A stretch of 64,000 bases of DNA, from NCBI GenBank assembly GCA_963855995.1, contig OY979723.1:9801013-9865012 (forward strand), read 5' to 3'. A program made the position numbers and the translations under genes. Positions 1 to 43,069 of the stretch are shown in pieces; positions within the stretch are counted from its first letter, which is position 1; each line of letters begins with the position of its first letter. This stretch comes from Muricea muricata. Its lineage: Eukaryota > Cnidaria > Anthozoa > Malacalcyonacea > Plexauridae. The notes below the pieces were generated by a model. It was not told the origin of the DNA. It saw nothing but the letters and a program-made list of their open reading frames with translations, and ran no database searches.

Positions 1-40
1 CCTAGGATATTTGGCCCCCGGGCCATATTTCCTAGGGTTA
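1..40. repeat. imperfect palindrome at window edge
   Basis: The first 17 bases (CCTAGGATATTTGGCCC) are nearly the reverse complement of the block ending near 38 (GGGCCATATTTCCTAGG). This looks like the end or collapsed core of a foldback element, cut by the window edge, so its size cannot be judged. Confidence 0.35.
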
Positions 41-82
41 GCGTTAGGGGTTTTTTTTGGGGGAGGCATATTTCCTGTTACA

Positions 83-888
83 CCGGTGTCAAGCGAAATT
101 TATGATCCTTGCGAAATACGTGACCATGCGTGACGGGTCATTAATTTCGCGCACGTGGGCGCGAAATTCATGACGCTTGCGAAATTCATGACTTAAGCGG
201 AACATACAAATGTCAAGAAATGTGTATGTCGCATAGAAATATAACCTGAAAACCTGCATTAATCGAGATATGAAGAATTTACAAGTCTGCTGCCGTTAAT
301 AGACTAAAGTTGATAAAAATATAACTCAACATTGCATCAGAAACTTCGTGAAATTGTCGATTAATAAACTTGAGCGTTTGTCGAAGTGTAAACATAATTG
401 AACTGGGTTATCGCAACTATGACTTCTAAACATATTTTCAAAACATTGTAGCTTTCAGGCATGAAACAGCGCATTTTGAAAAGGGGCATTTTAATAGGAC
501 ATATTGTTACACTCAGTCTAGATGCGTGACATTGATACATAACCCAAAATTTACACCAGTTAATTTGCCTTCGAATTAAGAGAATTTTGCGTATAAACTA
601 AGCTATACAAGCTATACACACCATACACGCTATACAGACCTCACTATACACACTATACAAGCTATATACACATGATAATCCCATCTATTAATTGATAATT
701 CAAAATTAAAACCACATGACTTCAAAAACGAGCAAAGATTTCCACCAAAACAAGAAACACACGTGCTGTTGTTGTCGACTTGCGAAATTTCTGAGCCGAT
801 GTCAATCATGCGCATCGTGTGCGCATGTGCAGATCTGTCATAGTCATGAATTTCGCAGGTCATAAATTTCGCGCGACACCGGCCCCTG
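83..888. mobile_element. non-autonomous DNA transposon with terminal inverted repeats
   Basis: CCGGTGTC followed by GCGAAATTTATGA at the left end recurs inverted at the right end (about 850-888), and GCGAAATT-type subrepeats recur near both ends. Read inward, the right end begins CAGGGGCCGGTGTC, which resembles hAT termini; the left end seems to have lost four G residues. I could not identify a convincing target-site duplication. No transposase reading frame is visible. The right end lies about 140 bp before the first caspase exon. Confidence 0.5.
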
Positions 889-1026
889 TTCTTACCCAGC
901 AAGAAAGGAACAACCGGTTCTGGACTCATGAAAATAGCCGATTGAACAATGTTTTGCGGCCCAAATTTCTCAATGTTGCCAACATTATTATGCAGAATTC
1001 TTTTGCAACAAAGTGTTTTCGTACAG

Positions 1027-2022
1027 GGCAAGCCAGAAACAGAGCGCAAAACGGTCTGGCACCGAAATCTTCATGCAGTCGTGTATATCAAATCAAACGT
1101 GGCTATGCTCTCGTGATACACAACAAAAACTTCAATTACAACCTTCGACCAAGAGAAGGGTCTGAAAAAGATCTTGAAGTGATAAAAGACTTCTGTGAGG
1201 AAGCAGATCTAAATCTTGATATTATACAAGATGTCACAATCGACGAGATCCGTGCCCATTGTTTGAAACTGGTAACAAAAGAGAGAAGTGTATTTCAAAA
1301 CTACGATGGTTTTGTTTGTTTTATACTTAGCCATGGAAATGGGTAAATATATATAATTCTTTCAATTCATGATTATATTTTCCTATTAAAAACCATTCGC
1401 GCAATCCATCAGTTAAAACGTGATCGTAACTAGGGGCGCCATTTTCGCAACAAAAATGTTTACACATGTTAGAAACACATTTTTGCTTCGCAGGAGGAAA
1501 AATTTTGTTTCTCTGACAATGTGCCTCGAGGTGGACAAACTGGGAAAATCATAGGAAGCATAGCGTTTCTGCAGCAGTTTGCCCAGGGCTTTAGGATTCC
1601 TCGCACAGAGGATCGCAGGCTCCAGCTACGAGACTGCCTCATGCGTCGCTGTCCAATGCATCGTTCTTTGATCCCAGGCGAAAATACCTGAATCTATTTT
1701 CTTTTACAAAATTCTAAATGGCCACACTGCTCCAAACCTAAAAGACGTTTTTTACCATAATAATGAAAGAGAGATATTTACCATAAAAATAAAGTATGTA
1801 TGTGTGTTTGTGTGTGTACTTTGTTTTAGGTCCGGCATCTCTGGAAAAAACGACAATATAATAAGCGTCAAAGAAATTATAAAGTATTTCAAAGGAAGCG
1901 ATGACCTCGTGGGAAAGCTTAAACTAGAAATACATGCATGCAGAAACCCCTCGCCACTAACTAAGAGCATGCAACTAAATTTTCGGAATTACATGAAGTA
2001 CGTGCATAGGTTGTTGTCATAG
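1027..2022 (+). pseudogene. C1: decayed caspase, exons 3 and 4 only
   Basis: Exon 3 (1027-1342, acceptor cag, donor gtaaat) encodes the first half of a caspase p20: GYALVIHN beta-strand, an R-x-GS substrate-pocket motif, and the catalytic His in ILSHGN. A degenerate exon 4 (1830-2022) joins in the same phase 2 as its paralogues. It carries the catalytic Cys as HACRN instead of QACRG/A, then loses similarity and stops before any p10 subunit. Exons 1 and 2 are not visible; a transposon occupies the upstream space. Family knowledge: p20 plus p10 are needed for cysteine protease activity, so this copy should be inactive on its own. Alternatively exon 3 could splice to the intact exon at 4697, which has compatible phase. 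Confidence 0.7.
1491..1691 (+). other. unassigned open stretch between C1 exons
   Basis: After a good splice acceptor (ttttgcttcgcag) there is an open frame of about 65 codons, beginning EEKFCFSDNVPRGG, ending at a TGA. It has no counterpart in the same intron of the other caspases and is less AT-rich than its surroundings. I do not recognise the family. It could be a captured exon or part of a decayed element. Confidence 0.3.
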
Positions 2023-2446
2023 CAACACGGCAATTGTTATTCTTTCCGTATATTTTTCAAAATGACAAAATATTGAGTTTTTAATCCTTGTTTTGTTGCC
2101 AATTTTTAAATGGCACAACATTTTTCATGGATGTGTTATTACGCCTAATGTAAGCTTAAATTTGGTATAAAATACGACCTATTAATTACATTAATAATAA
2201 GAAGACAGTCTTGCATTTACAAAACATAAACTTACTCTGAAATTTAAACAGTGAATAGACTGGATGAGTACGGCTACGCCGGCCTTTATAAAGCATTAAA
2301 ACACAAGTATAAATTCGCATTTTCAACAAACTTGCCTTGTATTTCACGCCATAGTCAATTGTTGGCGCTTCTCTGTATTTTCCCCGAATTAATCTCTCTT
2401 CAATCTTCTTCGGCAGTCTCGTCACAGATCAGGTATAGAACCAGAT

Positions 2447-2713
2447 CAAAGAGTAGAGACTACAAAGAGGGACCACTTCAGTCAAAAAAGCGTAAGGTGC
2501 TGTCGTGATGATTCGTGATGGGCGCCATGTTCCTAGCCAGTGCCCTAAACAGAAGCATTTCCCCCCGGTATTACTAACCATTTTTAATATTTCAGGGGGA
2601 GAATGCTTCTGTTTAGGGCACTGGCTAGGAACATGGCGCCCATGACGATCATCACGACATCACCTTACGCTTTTTTCAATGAAGTGGTCCCTCTTTGTAG
2701 TTTCTACTCTTTG
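2447..2713. mobile_element. 267-bp foldback MITE nested in the 2423-4033 element
   Basis: The two arms are inverted copies of each other for about 120 bp (CAAAGAGTAGAGACTAC at one end, GTAGTTTCTACTCTTTG at the other), meeting around a C-rich/G-rich loop. The 7-bp repeat ACCAGAT flanks it (2440-2446, 2714-2720). Removing it restores the outer element's terminal repeat, which proves the order of insertion. Its arms resemble those of the element at 54021-54303. Confidence 0.8.
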
Positions 2714-2849
2714 ACCAGATGTCTCACTTCCTATCTATTCCTAATGTTTTCGTGTCCGCGATTTTTCGGCTGATCACGAATTGCACACGCGAGATGACGC
2801 AACCAGAGAGCACGAATTGCTCACGCAATGGCACTTGCCCACTTGCCAC

Positions 2850-3671
2850 CATAGAGATTATAAAAGAATAGAGGCGGCATCTGGGGACGAATCGCGGGAC
2901 AAATTGAACAAATCTAATGGGGGGCAAATTTAGGTCCCGGATGTATAGCGATGAAAGCATACTGTTTTTGTCAATTTTTGCTTGTTTTATGACCAGTATG
3001 CACACAGATACTGACTATACTAGGAAAACATGTTTTTAGCTTTCTAGTTTTTGTAATTTTAGGTGCAGATAGCCAGATTTTTGTGTAAATATCAGAGTTT
3101 TTCAACCTTAGGTTCTCCCTAGCAACGCATAGCAACCAGTTTTTGACCGGCTTTTCGCAGCGAGGTTTTGCAAAATATCTGCTAAATTATCCCACATCTG
3201 GACACAAATTGAACTTATTTGCCTTCAAACAGTTATCAACATTGTTCTAGAGGTGCAACAAGGTGTACAACCACAATACGGCGATTTATTTAAACTTTAA
3301 GGACTTTTCTAGTGTGTTCATCTGATTTTTCGAATACAAAAATTGCATTTTCGCTCACAAATACTCAATATTAAACATACCCAACTTTATCCTGTATTCA
3401 AAACACAAAATTCAAACCTTTCAAGGCAATCCCGCACTAATCTTTAACATTTTCGCCTTAGTTTTTATTAAAAAAACTCTTAGTGCGAAAAAATCGGAAA
3501 AAGTTTTTTCTCAGCTTTCTCAATCTGTTGAACAGTCGATCAACAGCCAATAGGTGTAAGATGTTACATCCGGGTCTTAAATTTGCCCCCCATTAGCGAG
3601 CTTCAATTTGTCCCGCGAGCTTGACTGAATTTTAATCAGGATGCCGCCTCTATTCTTTTATAATCTCTATG
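2850..3671. mobile_element. 822-bp MITE with 8-bp TSD, nested
   Basis: Terminal inverted repeats of about 31 bp start CATAGAGATTATAAAAG and continue with further matching blocks inside (2885-2940 against 3562-3620). The 8-bp repeat CTTGCCAC flanks it (2842-2849, 3672-3679), a length typical of hAT insertions. The interior is AT-rich and non-coding. Confidence 0.8.
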
Positions 3672-4696
3672 CTTGCCACGCTGACGTGTACTGCTTACGT
3701 GAGAGCACTAATTGGACACGCAATACCTCTGGCAAGTGTAAGTCACATTTTTTATCAGAAAAAAGATAGGGAAGTGCAGAATTTTGGCAGTTAAACCGCG
3801 ATTTTAGGCGCAACTACCTATTGGTCTTTATTTTCTTGACGAATTTTACTGATAAATGATACGCTGCTTCTTTTTAGCAAGAAAGATTCACGCCACGCGA
3901 GCAAATCTGACGCGAGCGATCTGACGCGAGCAAATCTGACGCGAGCAAATCTGACGAAGGCTGACGCGAGCTCTTCAAAATCGCGGACATAAATTTTGCT
4001 TAGTGAGACATCTGGTTCTATACCTGATCTGTGGTCTCGTCGAGCCTTTGTCGTCGTCTACGCTCGTTTCGCCCTAGGTAGCCCAAAATTGTTCAGTGTT
4101 TTGATAAATTCAAACATCCATTCAGTTTTATATTGAGGTCTGTGACGTAGCGGTAGTTGCGTAAAGGCTAGTGTACATGCAAACGTTTCACACAGAAATT
4201 CATTCTCTTCCTCCTATTACATGGAAATGATCCTCTTTGGGTGTCTGCCTGCCGTCAGCATCAATGAACGCCAGCAACCTCTTTGGTATTGACTACAACA
4301 ATCGCTTGCTCAACTTCTTGGTCGACCTCTCTCTACCTCTTATTGACCATCAATCTGTTGATTCTTCACACAGTCCTGCCCGTAGTTTCGTTGATTCCAC
4401 GTGATCCATTCTTTCTGCCCGAACATAATGATCCCCTTGGTCTGGGTGAGGTCAAACTATGCTTGCTTGTGTTTGATCCACTTGACCATCTCTGCATTAC
4501 AAATATTTAACTCCTTTCACAATCTCAGACGCAAATGACGTTTTAAAATCCCCGAAAGTCAGAGTTCTTTTACTTGACCTCAACACCTTTTTGTGCACAT
4601 TATAACTTTAAGGATTGCATGTAAATAGCAAAAGTTACTAAACATCGTGAAAGATGCACTAAGGACAATTTACATTTTCGCTTGTACATTCTTTAG

Positions 4697-7344
4697 TTCT
4701 GGTATCTGTGGAGTGTCCGACGAAACGATAAGCGTCAAAGAAATTGTATCCTATTTCAAAGAAAACAACGAACTCCTCGGAAAACCCAAATTGTTCTTCA
4801 TCCAAGCTTGTCGAGCTTACGTCGAAGACGATAACACCAGGATTGATTACAAAAAAACCTTATGCCCACCAGATTCATCCGACATCCTGGTCGCATATTC
4901 AACAATCGATGGCGAGTTATTCTACAGGGATATTTCCAGTCGCTCATCGTTCATCCAAACTTTGCTGAAGCAGATTAGCACGCATGCGTATAGCGAACAC
5001 TTGATGGACATAATGATTACGGTGAATAAAAAGATAGCTGAGAACAAACTGGACGGTAACAGACAAATGTTGCCACAAGTTTCGACTGTGAAAAAATGCG
5101 TGTATTTCAAGATGGCAAAGGTTGGTAGTTGTACTAAAAGTCGTGATGAAGAAGGGGAAATAGTGTCAAAGGTGAGATTGCTAATTGTTATAGGAAAAGC
5201 TGCAATAATGCTATGTCTCAGCTTTTACTTGTTAAAAATAACTAAGTGTATCATTCAAGATCAGTGATCTCAATGTTTTTAACATTTTCAACCTTTATAG
5301 TGCTAAAAATATCGAGTTCACTAATTCCGAATATACAGAACATCTCTAGAATCAATATTTCTATCATTCAAACAAGGCTTTACAATGAAGCAGTAAAGTC
5401 ATCTTCAGACAGAATGAAATACAATATTTTACAACACACATACGAACACTATGAAACTCCAGTTATCCTGCTTGTTGAGTCATTCTTCTATAGGACATAG
5501 TATCATAATTGTAAACATATTCATATCAATTTTATACGTCTTGTTTGAGCGCTATATATTGATTCTCCATGTGTCCTCTATATTTGAAATTTGTTTTGTA
5601 CTTTACTTTTTTAAATTTTCGGCTAGTTAGGTTTCTCAATTGAAGGAGTTGTACTATACCTTAAAGCCCATCGTTCAAAAGGCTATAATTGTGCGCTTAA
5701 ATCTTTCTAAATTCACCCTAAATTAATTAACTGGAGGGTCAATAAAACTTAACCAATCCATCAAGTATGATTTCTGTTTTCTTAATTTTTCAGACAAATG
5801 AGATTGCACATGAAAGTAATAGTTGCAATCCTCACGAAGAGCCGATTTCAGTTTCAATCAACACATGCAGTACTAGTGTAAAAAGCAACCTTGAAGGTAA
5901 AGATTTGAAAAGAAAAGTTTCCTGTATAATAATAAGGAGTCGGATACCTTCTTTGAGCCTGGCTTTAGCCAGAGGTATCCAATCAATCGAGCCAGGGCAC
6001 TTGAGAAACGATAGGGTGTCATAAGTCAGTGACATCTCGCGCAGAGGTCCTTAGGCCAGGGACACCTTATCTTATTATGACGCCACTGCCTCCGGAAATT
6101 TCTAAAGGTTTAATTACAGCAAATATGACATCGTTAAAGGTCGTCTTTAAGACCTTAAACATTTGTTCGAGTGTGCACAATATTTTTTTGTTGTAGGGCA
6201 GATAGGAAACGAATGCGAAAAGGCTTTACAGGAGTCATTGCATCAAATCAACAATGGCTACGCTCTGGTCATACACAATAGATTTTTCGACAAACTTCCA
6301 TCAAGAAGAGGATCTGAAAAAGATTTTGATGCGATAAAGATATTCTGTGAAAAGGCAGGTCTCTACCTGGATATTATAGAAAATGCCAAAGTCAACGATA
6401 TCCGCCGCCATTGTCGCAAACTCAGACGAGATAAAAGTGAATTTCAGAAATATGATGGTTTCGTTTGTTTTATACTTAGCCACGGAAGTCGGTAATTATC
6501 TAGTACGGTGCTTTATATGGATGATACACGGGTTATTGTTTATTTAGCCCCTGATTCTTGGGGAATTAGTACTAAAAACGAGGATTTTAAAAACATTTCT
6601 TTGTTAAAAAATAAAAGCTACTGTACATGCAAACGTTTCACAAAGAAATTCATCCTCTTCTTCCTATTACATGGAAATGATCCTCTAATACAAATATTTA
6701 ACTCCTTCTCTAATTTCAGACCCAAATGACGTTTTAAAATTTCTAAAAGTTAGAGTTCTACTTGACAACAAAAAAATGGTAGAAATTAAAACTTTAAGGA
6801 CTTCATGTAAATAGCAAAAGTTATACTAAACATCAAAAAAGATGCAGTAAGAACCATTTACATTTTCGCTTGTACATTCTTTAGTTCTGGTATCTGTGGA
6901 GTGTCCGGAGATACGATAAGCGTCGAAGAAATTGTATCCTATTTCAAAGAAAACAACGACCTTTTCGGAAAACCCAAATTGTTCTTCATCCAAGCTTGTC
7001 GAGCTGGCGTCGAAGACGATACCACCAGGATTGATCACGAAAAAACCTTATGCCCACCAGATTCATCCGACATCCTGGTCGCATATTCAACAATCTACGG
7101 CGAATTAGCCTACAGGGATATTGACAATGGATCATGGTTTATCCAAACTCTGCTCAAGCAGATTAGCACGCATGCGTATAACGAACACTTGATGGACATA
7201 ATGATCATGGTGAATAAAAAGATAGCTACAAGTGACCTAGAAGGTAAAAGACAAATGCCGCAGCAGGTTTCGACATTGACAAAATTTGTGTATTTCAAGA
7301 TGGCAGAGGTTGGGAAGGTGCTGAAGCGAAAAACTCTATATTAA
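4697..7344 (+). CDS. C2/C3: in-frame fusion of two caspase genes
   Basis: The first exon (4697-5171) begins like exon 4 of a caspase: SGICGV, catalytic Cys as QACRA, p10 with DILVAYST and FYRD. After KMAKVG, at about 5125, it changes without a stop into the exon-1 sequence of the next gene (KSRDEEGEIVSK) and ends at that exon's gtgag donor. Exon 2 (5794-5896), exon 3 (6197-6491, catalytic His in LSHGS) and exon 4 (6885-7344, QACRAG, p10) follow in matching phases. A transcript could therefore encode two caspase units in tandem, or initiate at ATG 5112 to give one unit. In the first unit p10 GSW is SSF. In exon 4 one G is missing relative to paralogues near 7325 (GGTGCTGAAG against GGTGCTGGAAG). 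This shifts frame and removes the C-terminal tail. The true 5' end is unknown. Confidence 0.7.
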
Positions 7345-7439
7345 GCAGAGAAGCACATCTACAAGGATGAGACCAAATTCCTTAGCGGTTTACAATAACG
7401 AGCTAGACTTGCACCAAGTCTGCCTCTTGAATGGAATTT

Positions 7440-7476
7440 TGAATTAAGGAGGGCGGGCGGGAGGGCGGGCGGGCGA
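7440..7476. repeat. GC-rich GGGCGGGC simple repeat
   Basis: A short run built on GGGCGGGCGGGAG follows the C3 stop codon. The sequence after it (about 7490-7550) resembles 19272-19325 downstream of C5, so it marks shared duplicated flank. Confidence 0.6.
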
Positions 7477-7578
7477 AAAAGCAGGAAGCGGAGAGACAGA
7501 CTTATTTCCTTGCAGCGCGACAATTTTACCGGTTGAATTTTCACGTTTTATTACTGTAAAGAATAATTAGCAGACATA

Positions 7579-8103
7579 CAGTACTGTGCAGAAGTTTTAG
7601 GTCACCTATAAATTTTCATTTATTTGTAAAACTTAGCATATTATAACACAAAACTACAAAACAACGACATAGTTCATTGTTTTACAGTAGTAGAAAATTG
7701 TTCTACATTGGTAGAACCACTCAACAATTTCGTACAGAGAGATCTGGCAGTCTAGTACTTGGTGCTACCACCATGAGCAGCAGTTACAGATGCACAACGC
7801 CAAGGCATCGAGAAAACAAGCTTCTTTGCTGCATCTTCATCGATATTTTCCAATAACTCAAAGATAGCCGCCTTTAGTTCTTCAAGGTCTTTGCATGGTT
7901 TTGCATCCAACCTTTTCTTTATTTGTTTCCAAAGATGTTCGATGGGGTTTAGGTCAGGACTCTGTGATGGCCATGGGCTGACTGATATTCCTTTTCTCGC
8001 AAACCAAGACATGGTGCTGTTTGCTCGGTGATATGGTGCCCCATCTTGTTGAAAGACAAAGTCTCTACCGCAAAGCTTGCTACCATCTTTTAGAAGAGTT
8101 CGA
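7579..8103 (-). mobile_element. Tc1/mariner fragment: transposase C-terminal half and one end
   Basis: Read on the minus strand, QQDGAPYH carries the second catalytic Asp and SPDLNPIEHLW the catalytic Glu, with 34 residues between them, the DD34E spacing of Tc1 elements. The coding part ends near 7752. The transposon end CAGTACTGTGCAGAAG begins at 7579 directly after a TA dinucleotide, the expected Tc1 target. The N-terminal DNA-binding half and the other end are missing, replaced at about 8104 by a LINE fragment. It is dead as a source of transposase. Confidence 0.85.
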
Positions 8104-10028
8104 CAATGATGAGCCTAGCATAGCGTATTGCATCTAGACCTGCCGTTTCAGTGCACGGAAACATATATACAAGGAGAGACTCATCTCTCTGGACTTATTA
8201 CCAATCTCTTACTGGCATGAGTTTCTGGACTTGATGTTCTTTTATAAAGCTATATCTGGATTAGTGCTTGTATCAAGTGATGTCCTACCCGAGCAAATCA
8301 ACCTATCTAGAGTTACCCGATCAAGTGCAGACTCGAGTGTTCTGGCATTCCGTCCTCGACAATGTAAGACTTCAACTTTCCAAAGATCATTCTTTATACG
8401 GACACCCCGAACATATAACACCCTGCCAGATGAATTGAGAAGAAAAGATCTATGCTTGACTCTCTTTAAGGTGGCTCCCTACAGTTATAATGTTTCAGTT
8501 CACGTATTGTTTGAAGGTCTACTATATTCTTTTTCGTGAAAGTTGTGGTGTTGAAACTTAGCCACCACATTACCATGATGTTAAACATTTTTAATGATGA
8601 AAACTTTCGTTGGTTCATTTCGTCGCCATGGCAATATGGCGTTATGAACATGTCATATTTTTTATGATCTTTACATAATTTATTACTTTTAATAACATGA
8701 TAAATTTTGAGACGAATTGTAAAAGCAGGTTCTGAGATATTCACGAATGACTACTACAACAATTCCACGTTATACAATTTTTTGAAATTTTGATATGTTT
8801 TACTGCTTGTTATACCGAGAAAATGTGCAAGATTAAAAAAAAATTCACCGAAGGAAAAGCGAGAAAAACAGTCCTAAACTCTGGTTGACTTTATTGTCGT
8901 GACAAAATATCGATTCGGCATGATCGCTATTTGCGCATGCGTGTAAATTATAATGCGTGGAAAACGCGTGTTTTTAGTTGGCTTTTTTAGTAATTTTATT
9001 TTCGAGTTGTTTGGCACATATGTTATGAAACAGATATTTTTTACTTGTTTGAGACGAAAACACAAGATAATGTTCAAAATACGAAAAAAACAAAACACTA
9101 TAATCCATTGAATTGATCAATGGTTCATCATATTCTTTTTTGTTGAAAAAATATGTGTAAATATGCGTAAAAAAGCACCAAAAGATTCAACTACGACTTG
9201 AACAACTCATCCAAAACAACTTCTATCTCTTCTACTGAATTAAACAGGTAAAGTAGTATTAAACAGGGTTGAATGGCAGGAACTATATATGTTTCGCCGA
9301 TAATTTGAGAGTGCTTTTGAAAACAGAATAAAATAGCATTTTGAATTTTGATTGGCGACAATTTTTTAGTAATATTATAAACAACATTGCTTCAAAATAA
9401 TACTCAGAAACATATTTAAATATATATTTAAAAAACTGGTTAAAAACATACGTACTGTTTAACTTTTCAAAAAGTCAGGAAAATAATGAAGAATGATCAT
9501 GTTTTGGTACATAAAAGCACTCAAAAACAAGTTCTGTGGCTCTTGTTTTAAAAATTTTGCCGAACTACGAAAATTCCACGCGAAAGTCGCGAGGACGACG
9601 TCTAATCTCACTGATCTATATAAATCATTCGTAAACTGTATCAAAATGTAGGGAGCCACCTTAAATCGAAGCTGCTCCAATATTATCACGACGCAGTTAA
9701 AAATGTTTATGACATAAATGATGCGAGGACATGGAAATCCGTGTGCTTAAAATGCAACGCACCACGTAAACTTGTTCAACCACTTATGTGTTGTTTTTAG
9801 AACGTATAACATGCAGTTCTAGTTTATATTTTTGTAAGTCCTTGTTCGTATGCATGCACCAAGGGCCCACAGTAATTGGTTCTACTAGCTGTTGTGGTGC
9901 CCCTGCCTTCTGTATCTGTGTTTGTTTGTGAATGATCTTGTTTGCGTCTGTTGTCATTGTGTTTGTTCTTGTACTTAAATAATTTATGTTCATGTAGACG
10001 AAGCATAATAAATAAATAAATAAATAAA
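8104..10028 (+). mobile_element. 5'-truncated LINE end, split by a TTAA element
   Basis: The sequence encodes the extreme C terminus of a CR1/L2-like reverse transcriptase ORF (RVTRSS, FIRTPRTYNTLPDELR), stops being LINE at 8466, and resumes at 9661. Joining the two halves across one TTAA restores an unbroken frame, LTLF-KSKLLQYYHDAVKNVY, which ends at the TAG near 9800. A 3' UTR follows and ends in an (AATA)n tail at about 10005-10028. Family assignment is by eye and could be another non-LTR clade. Truncation at the 5' end is the usual outcome of target-primed reverse transcription. Confidence 0.7.
8470..9660. mobile_element. 1.2-kb MITE with TTAA target duplication
   Basis: Ends are inverted repeats GGTGGCTCCCTACA and TGTAGGGAGCCACC, flanked by TTAA (8466-8469, 9661-9664), the signature of piggyBac-like (or Kolobok) insertion. 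The empty site reads through the LINE frame perfectly. The interior is AT-rich with no transposase. A second copy of the left end starts at 19483. Confidence 0.85.
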
Positions 10029-13578: not shown

Positions 13579-14830
13579 TCACATATAGAAAATGCAATAT
13601 TGTTGATCAAGCATAGAAGTTCTATTCATCCTTCGCCCGTGTTGATCAGATGCACTAGTTGTACTCATCCTTCGCTCTCGATGATCTGGTGTAGTAGTGC
13701 CATTCATTCCTCTCTCTCGTTGATCAGAACTGGAAATTCTATTTATGCTTCGCCCGTGTTGATCAGATGCAGTTGTTGTACTCACGATTTGCTCTCGTTC
13801 ATTAGGTGTAGTAGTTCTATGCATCCCTCGCTGTCGCTCATCAAGTGTAATACTTCTAGTTAATGTTCTTCGCTCTCGATGATCTGGTGTGGTAGTTATT
13901 CTACTCATCCCCAGCTCTCGTTCGCGAAAATACACTGGCTTTCTCAATGTGCTCTCAAAACACGACATTTGCTTTCTGTCACTATTATCCAACCTGGCAA
14001 CCCGTTTGTTAACAATACTAAGTAAATCCGTCAAATTCATGCCATGGTTACGTTCATTTAAGACTTCCATCAAAACAGTAATAAACCACGAGCCCTGTGT
14101 CACATCTCTGTACGATTCATATCCATCGACTGTAGAGTAAGCAACTAGTATATCTGCCTCAAAAGGAATTCGAGCAGGAGTGATTGGAGGACTATCAGCT
14201 TGCACCGTATAGACTCCTCTATCAGCATTTCTTCCTCTGCAATTTTGCATGAAGAAAAGTTTTGGCTTATTTGCTAAAGAAACTATGCCCCTAAACTTGC
14301 TGATGACATTATTGACGGTAATACTGTTACCATCAGTTCCATATATAACATCACCCTCGTCTCCGCGGCTAGATATGAAAACTAGTAGAGCATCGTAGAC
14401 TCTGAATGGTGTTTTGGAAAAGCTCTCGCAAACTTGTATCATTTCCTCCGCTGTCAGCAGTGGCGTAGCCAGCTTCGATAATTGGAGGGGCGAATATTCA
14501 TATATTTGTGTTCACGGACCTTAAAAACAATCGATTTCAAAAGAAATTAATGATGCAAAACATGATACATGAATATTCGCCCCGCCAATTATCGACGCTG
14601 GCTACGCCACTGGCTGTCAGATCATCATGATAAAAGTAAGTGAAACCAAAGCTTCTACAAAACGCAAGAATTTTCGTTTTGTCATACTGCGCTCCTGGTC
14701 GGTTTGGAAGCCACAAATTTCTCACTCTGCTTCGAAATATGGTATTGGTTATGACCAACGCAATACCTTTACCAATTACAAATTGATCATTGTCGAATTC
14801 ATCTCTCAATGACAACGACCGCGATGCCAT
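13579..14830 (-). pseudogene. C4: intronless caspase, interrupted and His-substituted
   Basis: The ATG is at 14830-14828 and reading runs leftward without introns: GIALVITN, DKTKILAFC, then catalytic region, QNCRGR with the active Cys, p10 DILVAYST and ESYRDVTQGSWF. Two lesions are visible. A 155-bp MITE (14458-14612) lies inside the coding sequence, and the catalytic His codon is CGC (Arg, FISSRGDEG, 14365-14367) where the sister copy at 24 kb has CAC. The tail from about 13915 down to 13600 is a run of about eight 13-residue repeats (RTTTP-type) ending at the palindrome edge. Family knowledge: both His and Cys are needed for proteolysis. It is divergently oriented to C5. Confidence 0.85.
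14458..14612. mobile_element. 155-bp hAT-type MITE inserted in caspase C4
   Basis: Ends CAGTGGCGTAGCCAGC and GCTGGCTACGCCACTG are inverted repeats. The 8-bp duplication GCTGTCAG (14450-14457, 14613-14620) appears once at the homologous uninterrupted site near 24481 in C4b. That gives a direct empty-site comparison. Confidence 0.9.
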
Positions 14831-16279: not shown

Positions 16280-18779
16280 ATGAACAGCGACAGTGCTGAC
16301 AGTTCTAATATAAGTCATAATGAAGAAGGGGAAATAGTGTCAAAGGTGAGATTGCTAATTGTTATAGGAAAAGCTGCAATAGTGCTATGCCTTTTTACTT
16401 GTAAAAAATAACCAAGTGTAAAATTTAAGATCAGTGATCTCCATGTTTTTAACTTTTTTAACCTTTGCAGTGCTAAAAATATCGAGTTAACTAATTCCAA
16501 ATATACAGAACATCTTTAGAATCAATATTTCGATCATTCAAACAAGACTTATTAAAATTGAAACTGTAAATTTTCGACTTCATTTCGAAGTCATCTTCAG
16601 ACAGAATGAAGTACGATATTTTACAACACACATACGAACACTGCTTGTGGAGTCATTCTTCTCTAGGATATAGCATTATAATTATAAACATATTCATATC
16701 AATTTTACTTCTTGTTTGAGCGTTATATGTTAATTCCCAATGTGTCCTCTATATCTGAAATTTTTTGTACTTTACTTTTTTAAATTTTTGGCTAGTTAGG
16801 TTTCTCAATTGAAGGAGTTGTACTGTATACCTTAAAGCTCATCGTTCAAAAGACTATAACTGTGCGCTTAAATCTTTCTAAATTCCCAATAACTTAATTA
16901 ATTGAGAGTCAACAAAACTTAATCAATTCATTTAGTATGATTTGATTTTTTCAGGCAAATGAGATTGCACATGAAAGCGATAGTTGCATTTCTGACAAGG
17001 AGCCGATTTCAGTTTCAATCAACACATTCAGTGTAGAAAGCCAACTTGAAGGTAAAGATTTGAAGAGAAAATTTTCCTGAATAACAATATAGGCACTGGG
17101 TAACTCCTCTGCGCCTGGCTTTAACCAGGGACATCCAACCAATCGAACACGGGCACCTGGAAAACCATCGAAAAAGGCCCATAAGTCAGTGACATCTCGC
17201 GACATACCTCGTCGCAACGGTTTAATGTAGCTTTTAAACAGTGTTATTTTCTATGTAAATCCTGTATTCGACAGTTCCAAGACATAATAGTGTCCGGAAG
17301 TGTTTTACTACCAGGCCAAAATATTTTGACGACGAAGGGAGAAAACGTGGGGAGTTCTTGGGCTAGGAGCACTTTATCTTATAACTACGCCACTGGCTCT
17401 AGAAATAGAAATTAAGTCAGGCTTATTACAGCAAATATGACATTGTTAAAGGTCGTTTTTGAGTGAGTACAACATTTTTTTGCTGTAGGGCAAGCATTGC
17501 ATCAAATCAACAATGGCTACGCTCTGGTCATACACAATAGATATTTCAACGAACTTCGATCTAGAAGAGGATCTGAAAAAGATCTTGATGCGATAAAAAT
17601 ATTCTGTAAGGAAGCAGGTCTCTATCTTGATATAATAGAAAACGTCAGAGTCAACGAGATCCGCCGCCATTGTCGCCAACTCACACGAGATGAAAGTGAA
17701 TTTCAAAAATATGATGGTTTCGTTTGTTTCATACTTAGCCACGGAAACAGGTAATTATCTAGTTTCATTACATACAGTGCAGTGCTTTATATGGATGATG
17801 GATTATAGATTATTTAGCCTCTGATACTAAACTGAAATCATGATTTAAAAATCATTTCATTGTTATAGGGTATTCTACACGCAATCATAAATGAGTTGAG
17901 CTGATGTGATAAGTTGATTACATAGAATTTCACACAGAAATTCATCCTCTTCCTCCTATTACATAGAAATGATCCTCTTTGGGTGTCTGCCTGTCGTCAA
18001 CATCAATGAACGCCAGCAACCTCTTTAGTATTGACTACAACAATCGCCTGCTCAACTTCTTGTCCTGGTCGATCTTTCTCTATCTCTTTTTGACCATCGA
18101 CCATTTGACCATCTCTACATTACAAATACTTAACTCCTTCCCTTCTTTAAAATCCCCGAAGGTCCAAGCTCTTTTACTTGACTACAACACCTTTTTGTGC
18201 CCTTTATAACTTTAAGGATTGCACGTAATTAGCAAAAGTTACTCAACATCCTGATCCGTGAAAGTTGCACTTAGGACTATTTACATTTTCGCTTGTACAT
18301 TCTTTAGTTCTGGTATCTGTGGAGTGTACGGCGAAACAATAAGCGTCGAAGAAATTGTATCCTATTTCAAAGAAAACAACGACCTTCGCGGAAAACCTAA
18401 ATTGTTCTTAATCCACGTTTGTCGAGCTGGCATCGAAGACGACAACCCCTGGATTGATTACAAAAAAACCTTATGCCCACTAGATTCACCCGACATCCTG
18501 GTCGCATATTCAACAATCGGCGAATTATCCTACAGGGATATTGACAATGGATCATGGTTTATCCAAACTCTGCTCAAGCAGATTAGCACGCATGCGTACA
18601 ACAAACACTTGATGGACATAATGATTTTGGTGAATAAAAAGATAGCTGAGAGCGAACTGAGTGGTTACAGACAAATGCCACAGCAGGTTTCGACATTGAC
18701 AAAATTTGTGTACTTCAAGATGGCAGAGGTTGGGAAGGCCTCCCAAATGCGAAAGAGCTTCCGAGGAGTTGATACATAG
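16280..18779 (+). CDS. C5: four-exon caspase with altered active site and replaced tail
   Basis: Exons: 16280-16345 (ATG, ends EEGEIVSK, phase 0), 16955-17051 (acidic, EPISVSINT, phase 1), 17489-17750 (p20 first half, His in ILSHGN, phase 2), 18308-18779. Predicted 298 residues. Exon 3 lacks the 11 residues (IGNECEKALQES region) found at its start in C3 and C7. The catalytic Cys pentapeptide reads HVCRA rather than QACRG, so Gln and Ala of the motif are both changed. The p10 part (DILVAYST, LSYRDIDNGSWF) is intact. After EVGK the family tail is replaced by ASQMRKSFRGVDT, copied from the C5/C6 upstream block, and stops. Short acidic N terminus and no CARD/DED resemble executioner caspases. Activity is doubtful. 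Confidence 0.8.
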
Positions 18780-20794: not shown

Positions 20795-21443
20795 AAAAGG
20801 GTGGAACATAGCGCTTTTGCATCTAGTCGGCCATTTACAATCTTGAGCGTTCCAACCCCACTGGCTCCCATGCATCCCCATACGTAGATTTTCCATCTCC
20901 ATGTTTAACCGTGGATACGAGGCATTCTGGGTGGTACTCCTCTCCTACTCGTCGTCTAACAAATGCTCTTCTTCCCGGAATCATGTCAAAAATCGATTCG
21001 TCAGAAAACAACATCCTTCCCCACTGCTCGTCTGTTCAATTTTTCCGCTCTTTACACCACTGCAATCTCTCCTTTTTGTGTGCATTTGTGCGAAGTGGCT
21101 TCTTCCTGGCAACACAGCCCTTCAACCCACTCTCTAGTAGTCTTCTTCTAATTGTGCTGGAACACACAACTGTCCCTGTGCAGCCCGCAAATTCCCTCTT
21201 TAGTCCTTTAGATATTGCTTTTCTGTTAGATAGAGACAGACGCTTTAGAAGACGGTCTTGGCGCTTTGATGTTACGCGAGGTGGACCAGTCCTAACTCTG
21301 TCCTTCACTGTGCCAGTTTCTTCCTTTTTCTTCAGTATTTCTTGAACAGCACACAGGCTAATCTTCTGCTTCCTGGCAATAGCACGTTGACGGTATCCTT
21401 CCTTTTCCAAAGTGACCACTTCAGCTCTTTCTTCCACTGTCAA
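20795..21443 (-). mobile_element. Tc1 transposase N-terminal fragment
   Basis: From 21443 leftward: helix-turn-helix region (RAEVVTLEKEGYRQRAIARK), GPPRVTSKRQD linker, second HTH with STIRRRLLESGL, then the first catalytic Asp in LFSDES. A frameshift near 20870 separates this from the WGCMGASGVG block, and the sequence ends near 20800. It complements the 7579-8103 fragment, which holds the other catalytic residues, but the two are separate insertions. No terminal repeat was recognised. Confidence 0.85.
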
Positions 21444-21785
21444 GTTCCTTTTCTTTGCAATCTTAAGCCACTTTCACTTTGAGCAATTTAACTTACCCAA
21501 TTTATATCTAACAAATACTTATTGTAGTTGTGGGACACGTATACAATATGTATTTGAAGTGAAGTGTGCGTATACGCTTTCTGGAGTAAGCAACAGCACA
21601 TGGAGCAAAATAAATTGCAACAAATATGAAATTGAAGTTTCATTTACTTGTGTTTCAGAGGCTGACCTATGATAATGATAATATCAGGGAAAAAACATAC
21701 TCCAGATAATAATGCCACAAGGGGATATAGCTGGGAGTTTCTTATTTTTGCTCTGAAAATTGGATTCCGTGCACTGGGACTCATA

Positions 21786-23729: not shown

Positions 23730-24697
23730 TTATAATGGCGGAGGTGTATCAGTTCTTCGCTCTTGTGGGTCAGATGCACTAGTTGTACTCATCCTTCGCC
23801 CTTGTTCATTAGGTGTAGTTGTTCTATACATTCCTCGCTGTCGTTCATTAAAACTGAAAGTTCTATTCGTCCTCCGCCTTTGTGGCTCAGATGCACTCAT
23901 TGCTCGATGTCGTTCATTAGGTGTAGTAGTTCTATACATCCCTGGCCCTCGTTCGCGAAAATACACTGGCTTTCTCAATGTGCTCTCAAAACACGACATT
24001 TGCTTTGTGCCACGGTAATCCAACATGGCAACCCGTTTGTTAACAATACTAAGTAAATCCGTCAAATTCATGCCATGGTCACGTTCATTTAAAACTTCCA
24101 TCAAAACAGTAATAAACCAAGAGCCCTCTGTCACATCTCTGTACGATTCATATCCATCTACTGTCGAGTAAGCAACTAGCATATCTGCTTCAATAGGAAT
24201 TCGAGCAGGAATGATTGGAGGATTATCAGCTTGCACCGTATCGACTCCTCCGTCAGAATTTCGGCCTCTGCAATTTTGCATGAAGAAAAGTTTTGGCTTA
24301 TTTGCTAAAGAAACTATGCCCCTAAACTTGCTGATGACATTATTGACGGTAATGCTGTTACCATCAGTTCCATATATAACATTTCCCTCGTCTCCGTGGC
24401 TAGATATGAAAACAAGTAGAGCATCGTAAATTCCGAATGGTGTTTTGGAAAAGCTCTCGCAAACTTGTATCATTTCTTCCGCTGTCAGATCATCACGATT
24501 ATAGTAAGTGAAGCCAAAGCTTCTACAAAACGCCAGAATTTTCGTTTTGTCATACTGCGCTCTGGTCGGTTTGGAAGCCACAAATTTCTCATTCTGCTTC
24601 GAAATATGGTATTGGTTATGACCAACGCAATACCTTTACCAATTACAAATTGATCATTGTCGAATTCATCTCTCAATGACAACGACCGCGATGCCAT
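23730..24697 (-). pseudogene. C4b: intronless caspase with one frameshift
   Basis: Sister of C4. The ATG is at 24697-24695. The catalytic His is intact (FISSHGDEG, codon 24396-24398), the active Cys lies in QNCRGR, and p10 has MLVAYST and ESYRDVTEGSWF. A single base is missing after WLPNRP at about 24562 (CCAGAGCG where C4 has CCAGGAGCG), so the first 48 or so codons are out of frame with the rest; everything from about 24560 leftward is open to 23730. The tail has about five 13-residue repeats against eight in C4. A start at a later in-frame codon would drop beta-strand 1 and the R-x-G pocket region. It is divergent to C6. A sequencing error could explain the indel. Confidence 0.85.
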
Positions 24698-28354: not shown

Positions 28355-31300
28355 ATGAACCCGTTGGACAGTGCTGACAGTTCTAATAAAAGTCGTTATG
28401 AAGAAGGGGAAATAGTATCAAAGGTGAGATTGCCAATTGTTATAGGAAAAGCTGCTATGTCTTTTTACTTCTAAAAGATAACCAAGTGTATCATTCAAGA
28501 TCAATGATCTCGATGTTTTTAACATTTTTAACCTGAAAAAATTGAGGAAACGCGGCCAGGATTATACATGATGAGTAAATACAAACGTTCTCTGACCAAA
28601 TAATTGATAATTCGAGCTTTCGGCTGCCAGTGTGAAATATAAAACTATATACAAGCAAATATGGAACACAAAGTAATATGATACATATGTACAGGTTAAG
28701 CCTTATTCAGTAATATGCGATACTGTTCTGGCAGTGGTTTCGAATTGTTGTCCGATTCAGCTGTAATTGCTGTGTGCCATGCACGACTCTTATGTTTTTC
28801 TTGTTCGATAGTTACCCTTGTCAATAACTTTCTCATCTTCAAAATTAATTATGTGGTCATTAATCCAAGAATGACTCCGCTATATTTAGGCCAGCAATGT
28901 TTTTATTTGACATTCCTAATTAAATATGTTCTTTCTTTCGTGTTTCAAAACACCTTCCCGTTTCGCCAATATAGCTCCAAAAGCAGTCTTTGCAGCGGAT
29001 TTTTTGGATTACGTTGGTCTGCTTTTCGGTTTCAGGTCTTGTTGTAGTGTTCTTGTAGGTTTATTAGAAACTTTTATATCATCTTTCCGCAGAACTCGGG
29101 TGAGATTAAGCCCTTGTATAAGGCAGAACCGCGTAGCCAGTCGGTGTTGTAAGTCGATCGACCAAGGCTCAGAATTCACGTACTGACTGTTCACGTTGAG
29201 GAGTCACTTTTGTTTTCTTTTGTCTTCTCTGTACATCTGCGATAAATTTCGTGGGGTGGCCGTTTGACTTTAAAGCCTCGACAACGTTCTTTGTTTCAAT
29301 GGCTTTGCCTTCTACAGTGTAAGGTAGTCGGGTTGCCCTATGTAAAAGTGTTGCAGCTGTACCAATTTTATGTTTTTTGTCATGGTGCGATTTGAAATGT
29401 AAATATCTGTCAGGGTGTGTGGGTTTGCGGTAGACGTTAGTTGTAATAGTACCAGAATTCCATGAAATCAATGTGTCTAAAAATGCAATTTGTCCGTTCG
29501 CCGAGATGTGTGGGTCAATAGAATTTAACTCTTTGTGAAAGGAAGAAACTGCATCTTTCTTCATAATACAGAAGACATCTTCAGCATAACGATCCCATTC
29601 TTTCGGTGGATAGGTTGTGTTAGTAATAGCACGTTCTTCGATCTCCTCCATGTAAAGGTTTGCTATAACCGGACTAACTGGGCTTCCCATAGCACAGCCA
29701 TGGAATTGTCTATAAGTGGTGCTGTTATACGTGAAAAAGCTATTGGAATGCGTGAAACGTAACAGAGATATTATATCGTCAATCGTGAGTGTGGTTCTAG
29801 ATGGTAAAGTAACGTCTGATTCATTATTGTTCATCTATCCGAGGACTCAAAACACCTTGTACGAACAACGGCAGCAGCAATCCTAAACCGAGCCTGCCTG
29901 CCACAGCACAAGAACACCACCGCCGAAGAATTGAAAGCTCTCAACAATCTGAAGCAAGATAAAACTCGTGTTGTTATGAGAGCTGATAAAGGAGACTGTT
30001 TTGTTGTGATGGACCGCACATCATATGTGATGAAAAGATGGAATCGATTCTAAGCGACCGAGGAACATACGAAGTTGTTAATAAGGCACCCTTCAAGAAA
30101 GTTGAAAGAGAACTTAATCCCCACTTACTTCGACTCAAGAAAGAGCAAAAACTTGACAATAACACCAACCGGAAACTCAGATCTACTGATGCCATTCCAC
30201 CAGCCATCAGAGGCTCAGTGAGACATCACGCTGGGCACAAAAGACACGAAAAACGCACTTGTTGTTGTAACTTTGTCAATAATTTTTCTATTGAGCCAAA
30301 TTTTTTCCGAGACGTAGAAGATATTATTCTCACAAACTTGTTCTTTTTTGTTTTTGGAATTGTTACATTTTGGCGGGAAAAATATGTTGCTAATTTCGCA
30401 ACTTTCTTCAAATTTCACAAAAATGATGACAATCGAAAGCTGAAAGCTTGGTCTTTCCGCCTGCGAAAGAATGATTTTTGTAGACTGTATAATGAACGCG
30501 CTAGAGCACTGCAAAGTTCGATTACCTTTTTTTTTATACACCCTAGAAAAGGCTTAACAGAGCCTCTCACCCGAGTTCTGCAGAAACATGATATAAAAGT
30601 TTCTAATAAACCTACAAGAACACTACAACAAGACCTGAAACCGAAAAGCAGACCAACGTAATCCACAAAATCCCCTGCAAAGACTGCTTTTGGAGCTATA
30701 TTGGCGAAACGGGAAGGTGTTTCGAAACACGAATGAAAGAACATATTTAATTAGGAATGTCAAACAAAACATTGCTGGCCCAAATATAGCGAGTCATTCT
30801 TGGATTAATGACCACATAATTAATTTTGAAGATGGGAAAGTTATTGACAAGGGTAACTATCGAACAAGAAAAACATAAGAGTCGTGCATGGCAACACAGC
30901 AATTACAGCTGAATCGGACAACAATTCGAAACCACTACCAGAACAGTATCGCATATTACTGAATAAGGCTTAACCAGTACATATGTATCATATTACTTTG
31001 TGTTCCATATTTGCTTGTATATAGTTTTATATTTCACACTTTTGTTTCCCGTTGAAGGCTGTAGTCTGGCAGCCGAAAGCTCGAATTATCAATTATTTGG
31101 TCAGAGAACGTTTGTATTTACTCATTTTTTAACCTGCTTAATTGCTAAAAATATCGAGTTCACTAATCCCGAATATACAGAACGTCTTGAGAATCAATAT
31201 TTCGATCATTAATCAAACAAGACTTATTAAAATTGAAACGGTAAATTTTCGACTTCATCTTTAGACAGAATGAAGTACAATATTTTACATTACACATATG

Positions 31301-34124
31301 TACAGTGCTTGTTGAGTCATTCTTCTCCAGGACATAGTATCATAATTATAAACATATCCATATCAATTTTGCGTCTTGTTTGAGCGCTATATATTTATTC
31401 CCAATGTGTCCTTTATATCTGAAATTTGTTTTGTACCTAATTTACTTTTTTAAACTTTCGGCTAGTTAGGTTTCTCAATTGAAGGAGTTGTACTATACTG
31501 TGCGTTTAAACCTTTCTAAATTCCCAATAACTTAATTAATTGGAGAGTCAACAAAACTTAATCAATTCATTTAGTATGATTAATTTTTTAGACAAACGAG
31601 ATTGCACATGAAAGCGATAGTTGCATTTCTGACAGGGAGCCGATTTCAGTTTCAATCAACACATTCAGTGTAGAAAGCCAACTTGAAGGTAAAGATTTGA
31701 AGAGAAAATTTTCCTGAATAACAATATAGGCACTGGATAACTCTTCTGCGCCTGGCTTTAGCCGGGGGCATCCAATCAATCGAATACGGCCACCTGAAAA
31801 ACGATCGAAAGAGGACCATAAGTCAGTGACATCTCAAGACATATCTCGTCGCAACGGTTTAATGTAGCTTTTAAACTGTTATCTTCCATGTAAATCCTGT
31901 ATTCGACAATTCCAAAACATAATAGTGTCCGAAAGTGTTTTACTAGCAGGCTAAAATATTTTGACGACGAAGGGAGAAAACGTGGGGAGTTCTTGGGCTA
32001 GGAGCACCTTATCTTAGAACTGCGTCACTGCCTCCAGAAACAGAAATTAAGTCAGGCTTATTACAGCAAATATGACGTCGTTAAAGGTCGTCTTTGAGTG
32101 TGTACATTTTTTTGCTGTAGGGCAAGCATTGCATCAAATCAACAATGGCTACGCTCTGGTCATACACAATAGATTTTTCAACGAACTTCGACCTAGAAGA
32201 GGATCTGAAAAAGATCTTGAGGCGATAAAAATATTCTGTAAGGAAGCAGGTCTCTATCTTGATATAATAGAAAACGTCAAAGTCAACGAGATCCGCCGCC
32301 ATTGTCGCCAACTCACACGAGATGAAAGTGAATTTCAAAAATATGATGGTTTTGTTTGTTTTATACTTAGCCACGGAAATAGGTAATTATCTAGTTTTAT
32401 TATATAAAGTGCAGTGCTTTATATGGATGATGGATTATAGATTATTTAGGCTCTGATACTGAGAGACATAGCATTAAAAATCATGATTTAACAAACATTT
32501 CATTGTTATAAATAAAGGGTATTGTACACGCAAAAATGTAAATGAATGGACCATTTCTCAATTAGACAAACTTTCAAATTGGAAAACGATTTTAGCACAG
32601 TTGGAAACAGCCTCCTAAATTTAGTAAAATTGTAAAGTTTCGCTGTAAAATATTGTAAAATGTCGAAAATATAGTAATGTAAAGATTGCGATTTTTCTAT
32701 ACTTTTGTATTACGCGGGAAAAAGCGTTACCACATTTCCACATAGTGGTAACGCTTTTCCGTGCGTAATACAAAAGTATGCAAAATTCGCAAACTTTACA
32801 GGACAATATTTTCCACATTTTACAATATTTTGCAACCAAACTTCACAAATTCACTAAATTTAGGAAGCTCTTTCCAACTGTGCTACAATTCTTTTCCAAT
32901 TTAAAACTTTGTCTAATTGGGGAATGGTCCATTGAGTTGTGATGAGTTGATTACATAAAATTTCACACAAAATGTATACTCTTCCTCCTATTACATAGAA
33001 ATGATCCTCTTTTGGCGCCTGCCTGTCGTCAACATCAATCGCTTGCTCCACTTTTTGTCCTGGTTGATTTCTCTCTACCTCTTACTGACCATCAGCCTCC
33101 TTATTCCTCAAACAATCCTGCCGGTAGTTTTATTGATTCCACCTGATCCACTCTTTCCGTCCGAAATTCCCCGCTCCTTGAACACCTTCATATTGCGGTC
33201 TGCGAACTGGAAAAAGATGATCCTCTTGGTCTCGGTGAGGTCAAACTATGCTTGCTTGTGTTTGATCCACTTGACCATCTCTGCATTACAAATATTTCAC
33301 TCCTCCTCCAGACGCAATAATAATGACGTTTTAAAATCCCCGAAAGTTCAAGCTCTTTTACTTGACTACAACATCTTTGGGTAGACATTATAAACAGAAA
33401 AGGTTACTAAACATCGTGAAAAGATGCACATATTTACATTTACATTTTGGCTTGTACATTTTTTAGCTCTGGTATCTGTGGAGTGTACGACGAAACGATA
33501 AGCGTCGAAGAAATTGTATCATATTTCAAAGAAAACAACGACCTTCTCGGAAAACCCAAATTGTTCTTCATCCAAGCTTGTCGAGCTGACGTCGAAGACG
33601 ATAACACCGGGATTGATTACAAAAAAACCTTATGCCCACCAGATTCATCCGACATCCTGGTCGCATATTCAACAATCGACGGCGAATTATCCTACAGGAA
33701 CATTCGCAATGGATCATGGTTTATCCAAACTCTGCTCAAGCAAATTAGCACGCATGCGTATAACGAACACTTGATGGACATAATGACTTTGGTAAACAAA
33801 GAGATAGCTGAGAGCGAACTGAGTGGTTACAAACAAATGCCACAGCAGCTTTCGACATTGACAAAATTTGTGTACTTCAAGATGGCAGAGGTTGGGAAGA
33901 TGCTGGAAGCGAAAAACTCTATATTTCGCAGGGACGGCACACCTACAAGGATTGGACCAAATTCATTGGCGGATTACAATAACGAGCATGGTGAATCTGA
34001 TCCCCCTGCGGTTACCAGACCCAGGTCTTTATACCAGACCCAGGTCAGGAGAAGTAACAGACTAAGGCTGCTCAAGTTGATGGATGTCTTTGGTTTGCGC
34101 TTATGTTGTAATAACGGTTGGTAA
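28355..34124 (+). CDS. C6: four-exon caspase with Penelope insertion in intron 1
   Basis: Exons: 28355-28423 (ATG, DSADSSN, EEGEIVSK), 31592-31688, 32121-32382 (His in ILSHGN), 33467-34124. Predicted 361 residues with no frameshift. The catalytic Cys lies in QACRAD; p10 has DILVAYST and LSYRNIRNGSWF, so the substrate-pocket Arg is kept. A basic tail of about 80 residues (TRPRSLYQTQVRRSNR) follows. Intron 1 is swollen by a 2.6-kb Penelope-like insertion (28536-31125) and intron 3 by a foldback MITE (32546-32932). All splice sites match paralogues. Short acidic prodomain and no CARD/DED suggest an executioner-type protease. An AATAAA lies at about 34196. Replacement of the motif Gly by Ala (QACRA) is the only active-site oddity. 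Confidence 0.82.
28536..31125. mobile_element. Penelope-like element, two head-to-head partial copies
   Basis: An 11-bp repeat TTTTTAACCTG flanks the block (28525-28535, 31126-31136) and the caspase intron resumes beyond it. On the minus strand 29834-29169 encodes a Penelope-type reverse transcriptase (FHGCAMGSPVSPVIANLYME; RYAEDVF where YVDD-like is usual), followed leftward by GIY-YIG endonuclease remnants to about 28730. On the plus strand 29838-30235 encodes the element's N-terminal region (ADKGDCFVV, frameshifted near 30040). After about 310 bp of unrelated sequence a GIY-YIG piece follows (IPCKDCFWSYIGETGR, 30664-30710). The outer 540 bp are inverted copies, as often seen for Penelope termini. 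Both ends contain GGCAGCCGAAAGCTCG, a likely ribozyme remnant. Neither copy is intact. Confidence 0.8.
32546..32932. mobile_element. foldback MITE (ATGGACCATTCCC family) in C6 intron 3
   Basis: ATGGACCATT at the left and AATGGTCCAT at the right frame an imperfect palindrome. Flanks read TGA on both sides and the C5 intron has the empty site (AAATGAGTT near 17891), giving a 3-bp duplication. Confidence 0.75.
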
Positions 34125-40100: not shown

Positions 40101-40217
40101 GCATCCATGTTTAGTCCCAATCATAACCACGATTCTGAGCACATAGTAGTACAACCACAAGATTTATTGCGAGTATTCGCGGATCTAATTTCATCTTTCA
40201 ATGGAGGAAGAAAGTAA
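37121..40217 (+). CDS. C7: best-preserved four-exon caspase
   Basis: Exons: 37121-37177 (19 codons, phase 0), 38025-38121 (phase 1), 38557-38851 (phase 2), 39425-40217. The 413-residue product has an acidic N terminus of about 65 residues without CARD or DED, NNGYALVIHN (about 71-80), the pocket motif RRGSEKD, catalytic His147 in ILSHGN, catalytic Cys188 in QACRAG, p10 from DILVAYST (about 212) with the pocket Arg in SYRDIDNGSWF, and a tail of about 120 residues rich in Arg, Ser, Asp and Asn (TRPRSLSDYRSD, TRPRSQSDN). Typical executioner caspases lack such a tail. Family role: cleavage after Asp in apoptosis or inflammation-like signalling. Intron 1 contains a MITE (37726-37967). No lesion is visible. 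Ala replaces Gly in QACRG. Confidence 0.87.
37726..37967. mobile_element. hAT-like MITE in C7 intron 1
   Basis: CTGGGGCCGCTTGTATCAAA and TGATACAACAGGCCCCTGG are inverted, with GCTTAAACAGTGGATAAG pairing to CTTATCCACCGTTTAAGC inside. The other caspase introns lack it at this point. Related to 25085-25330 and 43172-43416. Confidence 0.7.
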
Positions 40218-41150: not shown

Positions 41151-41603
41151 TTTATGCATTTTCACATTCAACACGTTTCGAAACGCTTCCAATACAGAAG
41201 AAGGAACCGCCAATCCCTTTTTAAATTCGTCACTTGATAAAGTTCAGTTGAACCGCTCACTACTTTATTCACAGTCCGCGCCGCAGTATTGAAGCATTCT
41301 CGACGAGCAACAGTACACAACTAACAAATTAAAGATGAACCTGTACTCAGAATGAGGAATGCCAAAGGTGAGATAGCTCAATTTTTCTTGCGAATTCCGA
41401 CAATTCATTATAAAACTATTGTATTGTAAAAAAATAGCAAAAAACTTTCAAGTTAGTTCATTTGAAAACTAACTTGTATCATGCATCAGATTTATAAGAC
41501 TTTTTATGTGGTATTTGAGTCATGTCTGCTTCAAAAATTATTTTATATGGAAATTTAAGAACGTTTCGGCTGGAGCTCACGAAAATCGCGTCCAACCATA
41601 TAG

Positions 41604-41699
41604 GTAGCCCAGGCTAGGTCACATTCAATATAATGAATACATAATTATATATATGTAATTATATATTCATTATATTGAATGTGACCTAGCCTGGGCTAC
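41604..41699. repeat. 96-bp palindrome in C8 intron 1
   Basis: GTAGCCCAGGCTAGGTCACA and its exact inverse frame an AT-rich palindromic core. TCCAACCATA and TCCAACATA lie outside the arms and may be a target duplication of 9-10 bp. It would form a long hairpin in the transcript. Confidence 0.75.
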
Positions 41700-42659: not shown

Positions 42660-43069
42660 ATAGATTAAGGATACATAGATGTGCAACTGGGGATATTTTG
42701 CCTGTGATTTCGCTGTCTCACGGATTACGTCATATCCGCACACACTTCTGGCAAGTACATTTGTTAGAATTTCAATATAAATGTATTATACAGAAAAATG
42801 GTTTCTGCTGTTTTATAAGCGACCAGGACAAAAACATAACTTCATTTGTCGCTTGAAATATACAGGGCAACTTCTTTTTATGTATTTCTGTGAACCAAGG
42901 CAATCTAGCGAAAAGTTTTCTTATTGAAAAGATTGCCGTTTATTTGACATTTTCCTACAAAATCTCACATTTGTACTTGCCAGAAATGGGCATGCGTATG
43001 ACGCACAAAAGCCATCCACACAAGACAAGAAAACCCCGAGTTGCACATCCATGTATCCTTAATCTATGC
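42660..43069. mobile_element. TIR element in C8 intron 2, 7-bp TSD
   Basis: ATAGATTAAGGATACATAGA and its inverse (CATGTATCCTTAATCTATG) are terminal, with GTGCAACT/AGTTGCAC next. CAGAACT flanks it (42653-42659, 43070-43076). Confidence 0.75.

Follow-up and report, generated by a model that had tools for sequence, protein, structure and literature searches.

We analysed a stretch of 64,000 nt from the anthozoan Muricea muricata, hereafter the window, whose plus strand carries a tandem array of similar caspase genes with short prodomains. Three of these genes (units A, B, and C, at 16280-18779, 28355-34124, and 37121-40217) have open four-exon models with AG/GT boundaries and share one exon plan. 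A first exon of 57-69 nt is followed by a linker exon of 97 nt, by a third exon encoding the first half of the large subunit (p20a) that ends just past the catalytic His, and by a fourth exon that contains the catalytic Cys and encodes p20b, p10, and a variable tail. Unit D, also on the plus strand at about 41335-45215, resembles a pseudogene. It is broken in three separate places (a stop in the first exon, a p20a end lacking SHG, and a shifted frame in p20b), which indicates decay within the array. The minus strand holds a further pair of caspases (13582-14776 and 23733-24643), which belong to a different branch, contain a QNCRG motif, and have repeated C-terminal tails with TTTPNER-like units. 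A pattern search of genome contigs (114 matches) and viral contigs (81 matches), collections that are poor for an animal gene, confirmed no relative outside the window.

Near the start of the window, on the plus strand, the terminal exon of one caspase gene (X1) runs directly into the first exon of another (Y). The fused exon (4697-5171) has 475 nt and lies in a reading frame that is open from 4629 to 5264. When bases 1-8000 were compared with the window, the terminal exons of Y, A, B, C, and D aligned to the X1 portion (4697-5125) and all five ended at 5125. The alignments of the first exons of A and B began at 5127 and that of C at 5135, and the first exon of D gave no match in the junction region. 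The single base in between, at 5126, is of neither terminal-exon nor first-exon type. The GT at 5172 is the conserved donor of the first exon, in the context AAG/GTGAGA common to A, B, C, and the fusion. The in-frame join of the X1 terminal exon to the Y first exon is thus confirmed as real in the DNA sequence. This switch of homology lies where the initial annotation had put the join (about 5125), and its limits of 4697 and 7344 were also right, as was its description of a terminal exon running without a stop to a first-exon donor.

Downstream of the junction, Y retains a first-exon remnant (5127-5171), from which the start codon and the following codons up to the break are gone, a linker exon (5794-5896), a p20a exon with the catalytic His in LSHGSR (6197-6491), and a p20b/p10 exon with the Cys in QACRA and an intact GSWF (6885-7344, including the stop codon). 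Relative to unit C, a 1-base deletion 3' of p10 shortens the C-terminal tail. Taken separately, Y matches positions 2-233 of the 233 of the caspase profile (Peptidase C14A, PF00656) with 150.5 bits; the full p20/p10 extent is covered, with both LSHG and QAC. Units A, B, and C share their 5' flanks with one another and with D, over about 190 bases against D and about 105 bases between C and either A or B. This block has no match in the window before 15800, so that Y lacks the promoter side of its sisters along with the start codon, both of which are kept by A, B, C, and D. The loss of the first gene's tail, of the spacer, of the promoter side, and of the second start codon, which had been expected from the fusion, is therefore borne out.

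The cause of the join had been put down to deletion or unequal crossing-over. We compared the ends of five terminal exons with three first exons, over 300 bases each, and in all 15 pairs the longest shared words were of 7-9 bases, none of them sitting at the break on both sides. Two shared words do start at the break in unit D; their first-exon copy lies 69-71 bases off. Since the joined ends have no useful homology, the join is better explained by a deletion closed through end joining than by homologous unequal crossing-over at 5125, which we rejected for want of usable shared sequence. Deletion remains the simplest cause of the join suggested by these comparisons, and a short microhomology at the break is possible, the sequences that preceded the deletion being gone. 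The same comparisons bear on the proposal that separate genes were misjoined, or an array copy collapsed, during assembly. The array is repetitive, and one run of 62 bases (5146-5207) recurs unchanged in unit A. However, misjoins driven by repeats need shared sequence, and its absence at the break argues against them. No exact match of more than 26 bases to the 200 bases before the junction occurs anywhere else in the window, and 5100-5160 is matched over no more than 23 bases, which start at 5103 and end at 5125. An assembly artefact thus seems very improbable.

The sequence upstream of X1 is a patchwork. The p20a exon that should precede X1 is absent, and because this half is missing, the region 4697-7344 comprises one and a half catalytic units, which refines the initial annotation. 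The only candidate partner upstream of the X1 exon in the window is the p20a exon of another unit, X0 (1027-1342, plus strand), 3.35 kb away; no second p20a was found in 1345-4300. The X0 exon has an open frame with AG/GGC and TGG/GTAAAT boundaries, a phase 2 donor, the catalytic His in LSHGNG, and a match to Pfam Peptidase_C14 on 795-1343. It is followed by its own p20b exon (1830-2022, plus strand), truncated, where homology to other p20b exons ends just past a HACR motif (QACR-like) and is followed by a stop, without p10. The first exon and promoter of X0 were not found in the window.

X0 belongs to a different and more diverged unit than X1. Its p20a exon shares 69-77% identity with the other units over the first two 100-bp windows and 81-89% in the last 31-54 bases, whereas X1 is 90-98% identical to A, B, and C over 4700-4899. 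We rejected the X0 p20a exon as the original partner of X1, because the two are unequally diverged and X0 retains a p20b of its own. Within the X1 exon the divergence is mosaic, with 95-98% identity to B over 4700-4899 and 78-85% to A, B, C, and Y over 4900-5099, a pattern that gene conversion might have produced. The homology of X1 to the shared intron starts at 4162. Between X0 and X1 lies an insertion of 1611 bp (2423-4033) with 24-bp terminal inverted repeats, flanked by a 7-bp repeat, GTCTCGT (2416-2422 and 4034-4040), which we read as a target-site duplication. If so, the X0 fragment and the X1 intron adjoined each other before the insertion. Inside the insertion are an imperfect palindrome (2446-2714) and another pair of inverted repeats (2850-2945/3565-3671), possibly nested elements.

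A spliced model can nonetheless be drawn through this patchwork. The phase 2 donor of X0 p20a at 1342 matches the X1 acceptor at 4697, and X0 p20a, X1, and Y together give an open composite of 548 residues with AG/GT boundaries and matching phases throughout, as the initial annotation had held for the fused exon and its neighbours; its start is not in the window. The composite has two Peptidase_C14 stretches, covering positions 1-225 and 2-233 of the 233 of the profile (274 bits in all) and separated by about 80 residues from the first-exon and linker segment. The X0/X1 portion separately scores 128.5 bits over 1-225, as a spliced model only, from halves 3.35 kb apart, and it has both the catalytic His (LSHGNG, from X0) and the catalytic Cys (QACRA, from X1). 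The phases equally allow X0 p20a to be spliced to its own p20b (168 residues), where the match is limited to positions 1-128 of the profile (57.8 bits), or directly to the p20b of Y (257 residues).

One reading of this model is a functional newborn double caspase, in which X0 p20a with X1 p20b/p10 would form one fold and Y another, the two pairing within the molecule. The fitting phases and the frame open throughout, the retention of both His and both Cys in nearly complete profile matches, and the precedent of the Acropora caspase-X in animals are all consistent with it. But the splice from 1342 to 4697 must skip the p20b acceptor of X0 itself at 1830, the two halves of the N-terminal unit are unequally diverged, X1 has RSSF in place of GSWF, and the missing first exon and promoter of X0 leave the transcript without a start in the window. 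The initial annotation had one mRNA encoding two catalytic units, whose dimerisation the shared chain could force, and two units would require this same splice. We therefore regard this reading as unlikely, and its stricter form, in which one deletion has been caught at the birth of a double caspase with both catalytic His/Cys pairs still present, as quite unlikely. Alternatively, Y might have been rescued as a single-domain caspase by a promoter within the X1 exon or close to it. An in-frame ATG at 5112-5114 (tttcaagATGg), which has A at -3 and G at +4, might replace the lost start codon and would give an open product of 305 residues with the full match of Y to the profile, close in length to unit A (298 residues). 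The five sister units have this ATG too, at an internal position of their terminal exons, and no promoter block like that of the sisters precedes Y. A rescue of Y is likewise unlikely, although the codon substitutions in Y, described below, would fit it.

The substitutions in X1 speak to its history. X1 has 28 private codons among 142 when set against Y, A, B, and C (20 amino-acid changes and 8 silent ones), with 33 base changes that introduced neither a stop nor a frameshift. The chance of no stop after 33 random changes is 0.28-0.30, and the 16 frame-breaking gaps per 157 changes in six pairs of introns lead one to expect about 3.4 frameshifts in X1. By our arithmetic an open frame would thus have a probability of about 1% under neutral drift, over a history much of which may precede the fusion. 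The open frame points to past constraint, which it does not date to after the fusion. Of the 20 private residues of X1, three lie among the 44 positions invariant in the seven other caspases of the window, against 6.2 expected at random (P 0.075); the same test gave 1/5 for Y, 3/9 for A, 0/9 for B, and 0/7 for C. Two of the three changes are in GSWF (G to R, W to S), and the third, L to V, is close to the last strand. As a result, the p10 of X1 has RSSF where all seven of the other window caspases compared have GSWF. In addition, the Ser two residues before the conserved Arg is replaced by Phe in X1 and by Ala in Y. We take the Trp of GSWF to be that of the S4 pocket and to correspond to Trp321 of a coral caspase. 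In the coral enzyme, Trp321 makes a water-bridged contact with the Asp at P4 (PMC7586219).

Codon models were fitted for X1 on five of the six units, D being omitted as frame-shifted, and gene conversion may disturb such fits, in which omega was 0.53 for X1 (LRT 2.74), 0.44 for its p10 part (LRT 3.71), 1.32 for its first 67 codons, and 0.92 for the sister branches, the last two values counting against a signal special to X1. Values for Y (0.47, LRT 3.46) and for the p20a of X0 (0.51-0.52, LRT 2.4-2.5) were similar, and no single-branch LRT against an omega of 1 reached 3.84. When the linker, p20a, and p20b exons were pooled across Y, A, B, and C, a single omega of 0.67 was only just better than 1 (lnL -1661.55 vs -1663.50). 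We lean towards constraint from these estimates below 1, which in X1, Y, and X0 p20a would also suit a double caspase.

The reading that we favour, with a probability of about one half, is that the locus is a relic still largely open. In a caspase array subject to birth and death, a deletion would have fused the X1 terminal exon to the Y first exon, after which expression of Y would depend on a promoter further upstream or on a new one. With the p20a half of X1 and the p10 of X0 both lost, what remains of the N-terminal unit is a patchwork that would need exon skipping to be made and whose substrate pocket is probably damaged. If the locus were expressed throughout, a double caspase would result, with the N-terminal unit as a tethered partner of Y, poorly active or regulatory, and Y as the more intact C-terminal half, in a partnership such as has been proposed for the Acropora caspase-X. 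The truncated p20b of X0, the lack of a p20a in X1, its RSSF, and the decay of unit D all favour a relic; the open X1 frame, the small share of its private changes at invariant positions, the omega estimates below 1, and the extent to which the X0/X1 model still matches the profile speak against it.

Tandem-domain caspases had been called unusual in the initial annotation, which is less so than claimed, since several have been published (PMC4715348, PMC12198278, PMC10967218). Acropora has caspase-X, with four members in A. millepora (AmCaspase Xa-Xd) and seven predictions in A. digitifera, one of them with four domains; a cDNA exists, and the N-terminal domain lacks the catalytic His and Cys (PMC4715348). 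The C-terminal domain alone killed more HeLa cells than the full protein, a pairing of the two domains like that of c-FLIP and caspase-8 was proposed, and the discussion refers to proteins predicted in databases to have more than a single caspase domain (PMC4715348). The words 'exon', 'intron', and 'duplicat' are absent from the main text of that article (PMC4715348). Compared by its described features and not by sequence, caspase-X resembles the Muricea locus in having two caspase domains on one chain (here predicted), of which the C-terminal one is more intact. Unlike caspase-X, the Muricea locus, known from DNA alone, keeps the His and Cys of its N-terminal unit, and the damage is seen in p10.

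In mammals, CASP16 has a caspase-fold N-terminal region as well, attributed to a duplication of caspase exons, and its catalytic residues are only in the C-terminal part (PMC12198278). Here the origin would instead be a join of neighbouring genes, with a first-exon and linker segment between the units. The caspase family of the mussel Mytilus coruscus has grown by tandem duplication, and 4 of its 47 members carry two CASc domains (PMC10967218). This family offers a parallel, in domain content, in a bivalve. Given these published cases, the Muricea fusion is possibly a further and independently formed case of a known kind; among the literature matches listed, none describes this fusion. If expressed, the locus would work like caspase-X, CASP16, and the double caspases of the mussel.

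Were the fusion indeed caught at birth, it would illustrate the origin of inactive-active pairs such as caspase-X, with the N-terminal substrate pocket lost first and the catalytic residues later. A clean in-frame join between neighbours, with the sister genes adjoining, would be a second and simple route beside the exon duplication proposed for CASP16 (PMC12198278). If the locus is only a relic, it would be an ordinary case of birth-and-death turnover among arrayed caspase genes.

Scans for Rfam families (at the gathering threshold) and for tRNAs gave no matches in the window. Other elements include transposase remnants (DDE_3; HTH_Tnp_Tc3_2) on the minus strand at 7755-8114 and 21039-21473, and a reverse-transcriptase match below the Pfam cut-off on the same strand at 29172-29834. 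A rhodopsin-type receptor is encoded by a single ORF on the plus strand (47860-48810), and the minus strand at 51128-55243 has several ORF pieces with matches to MFS and acetyl-CoA transporter families.
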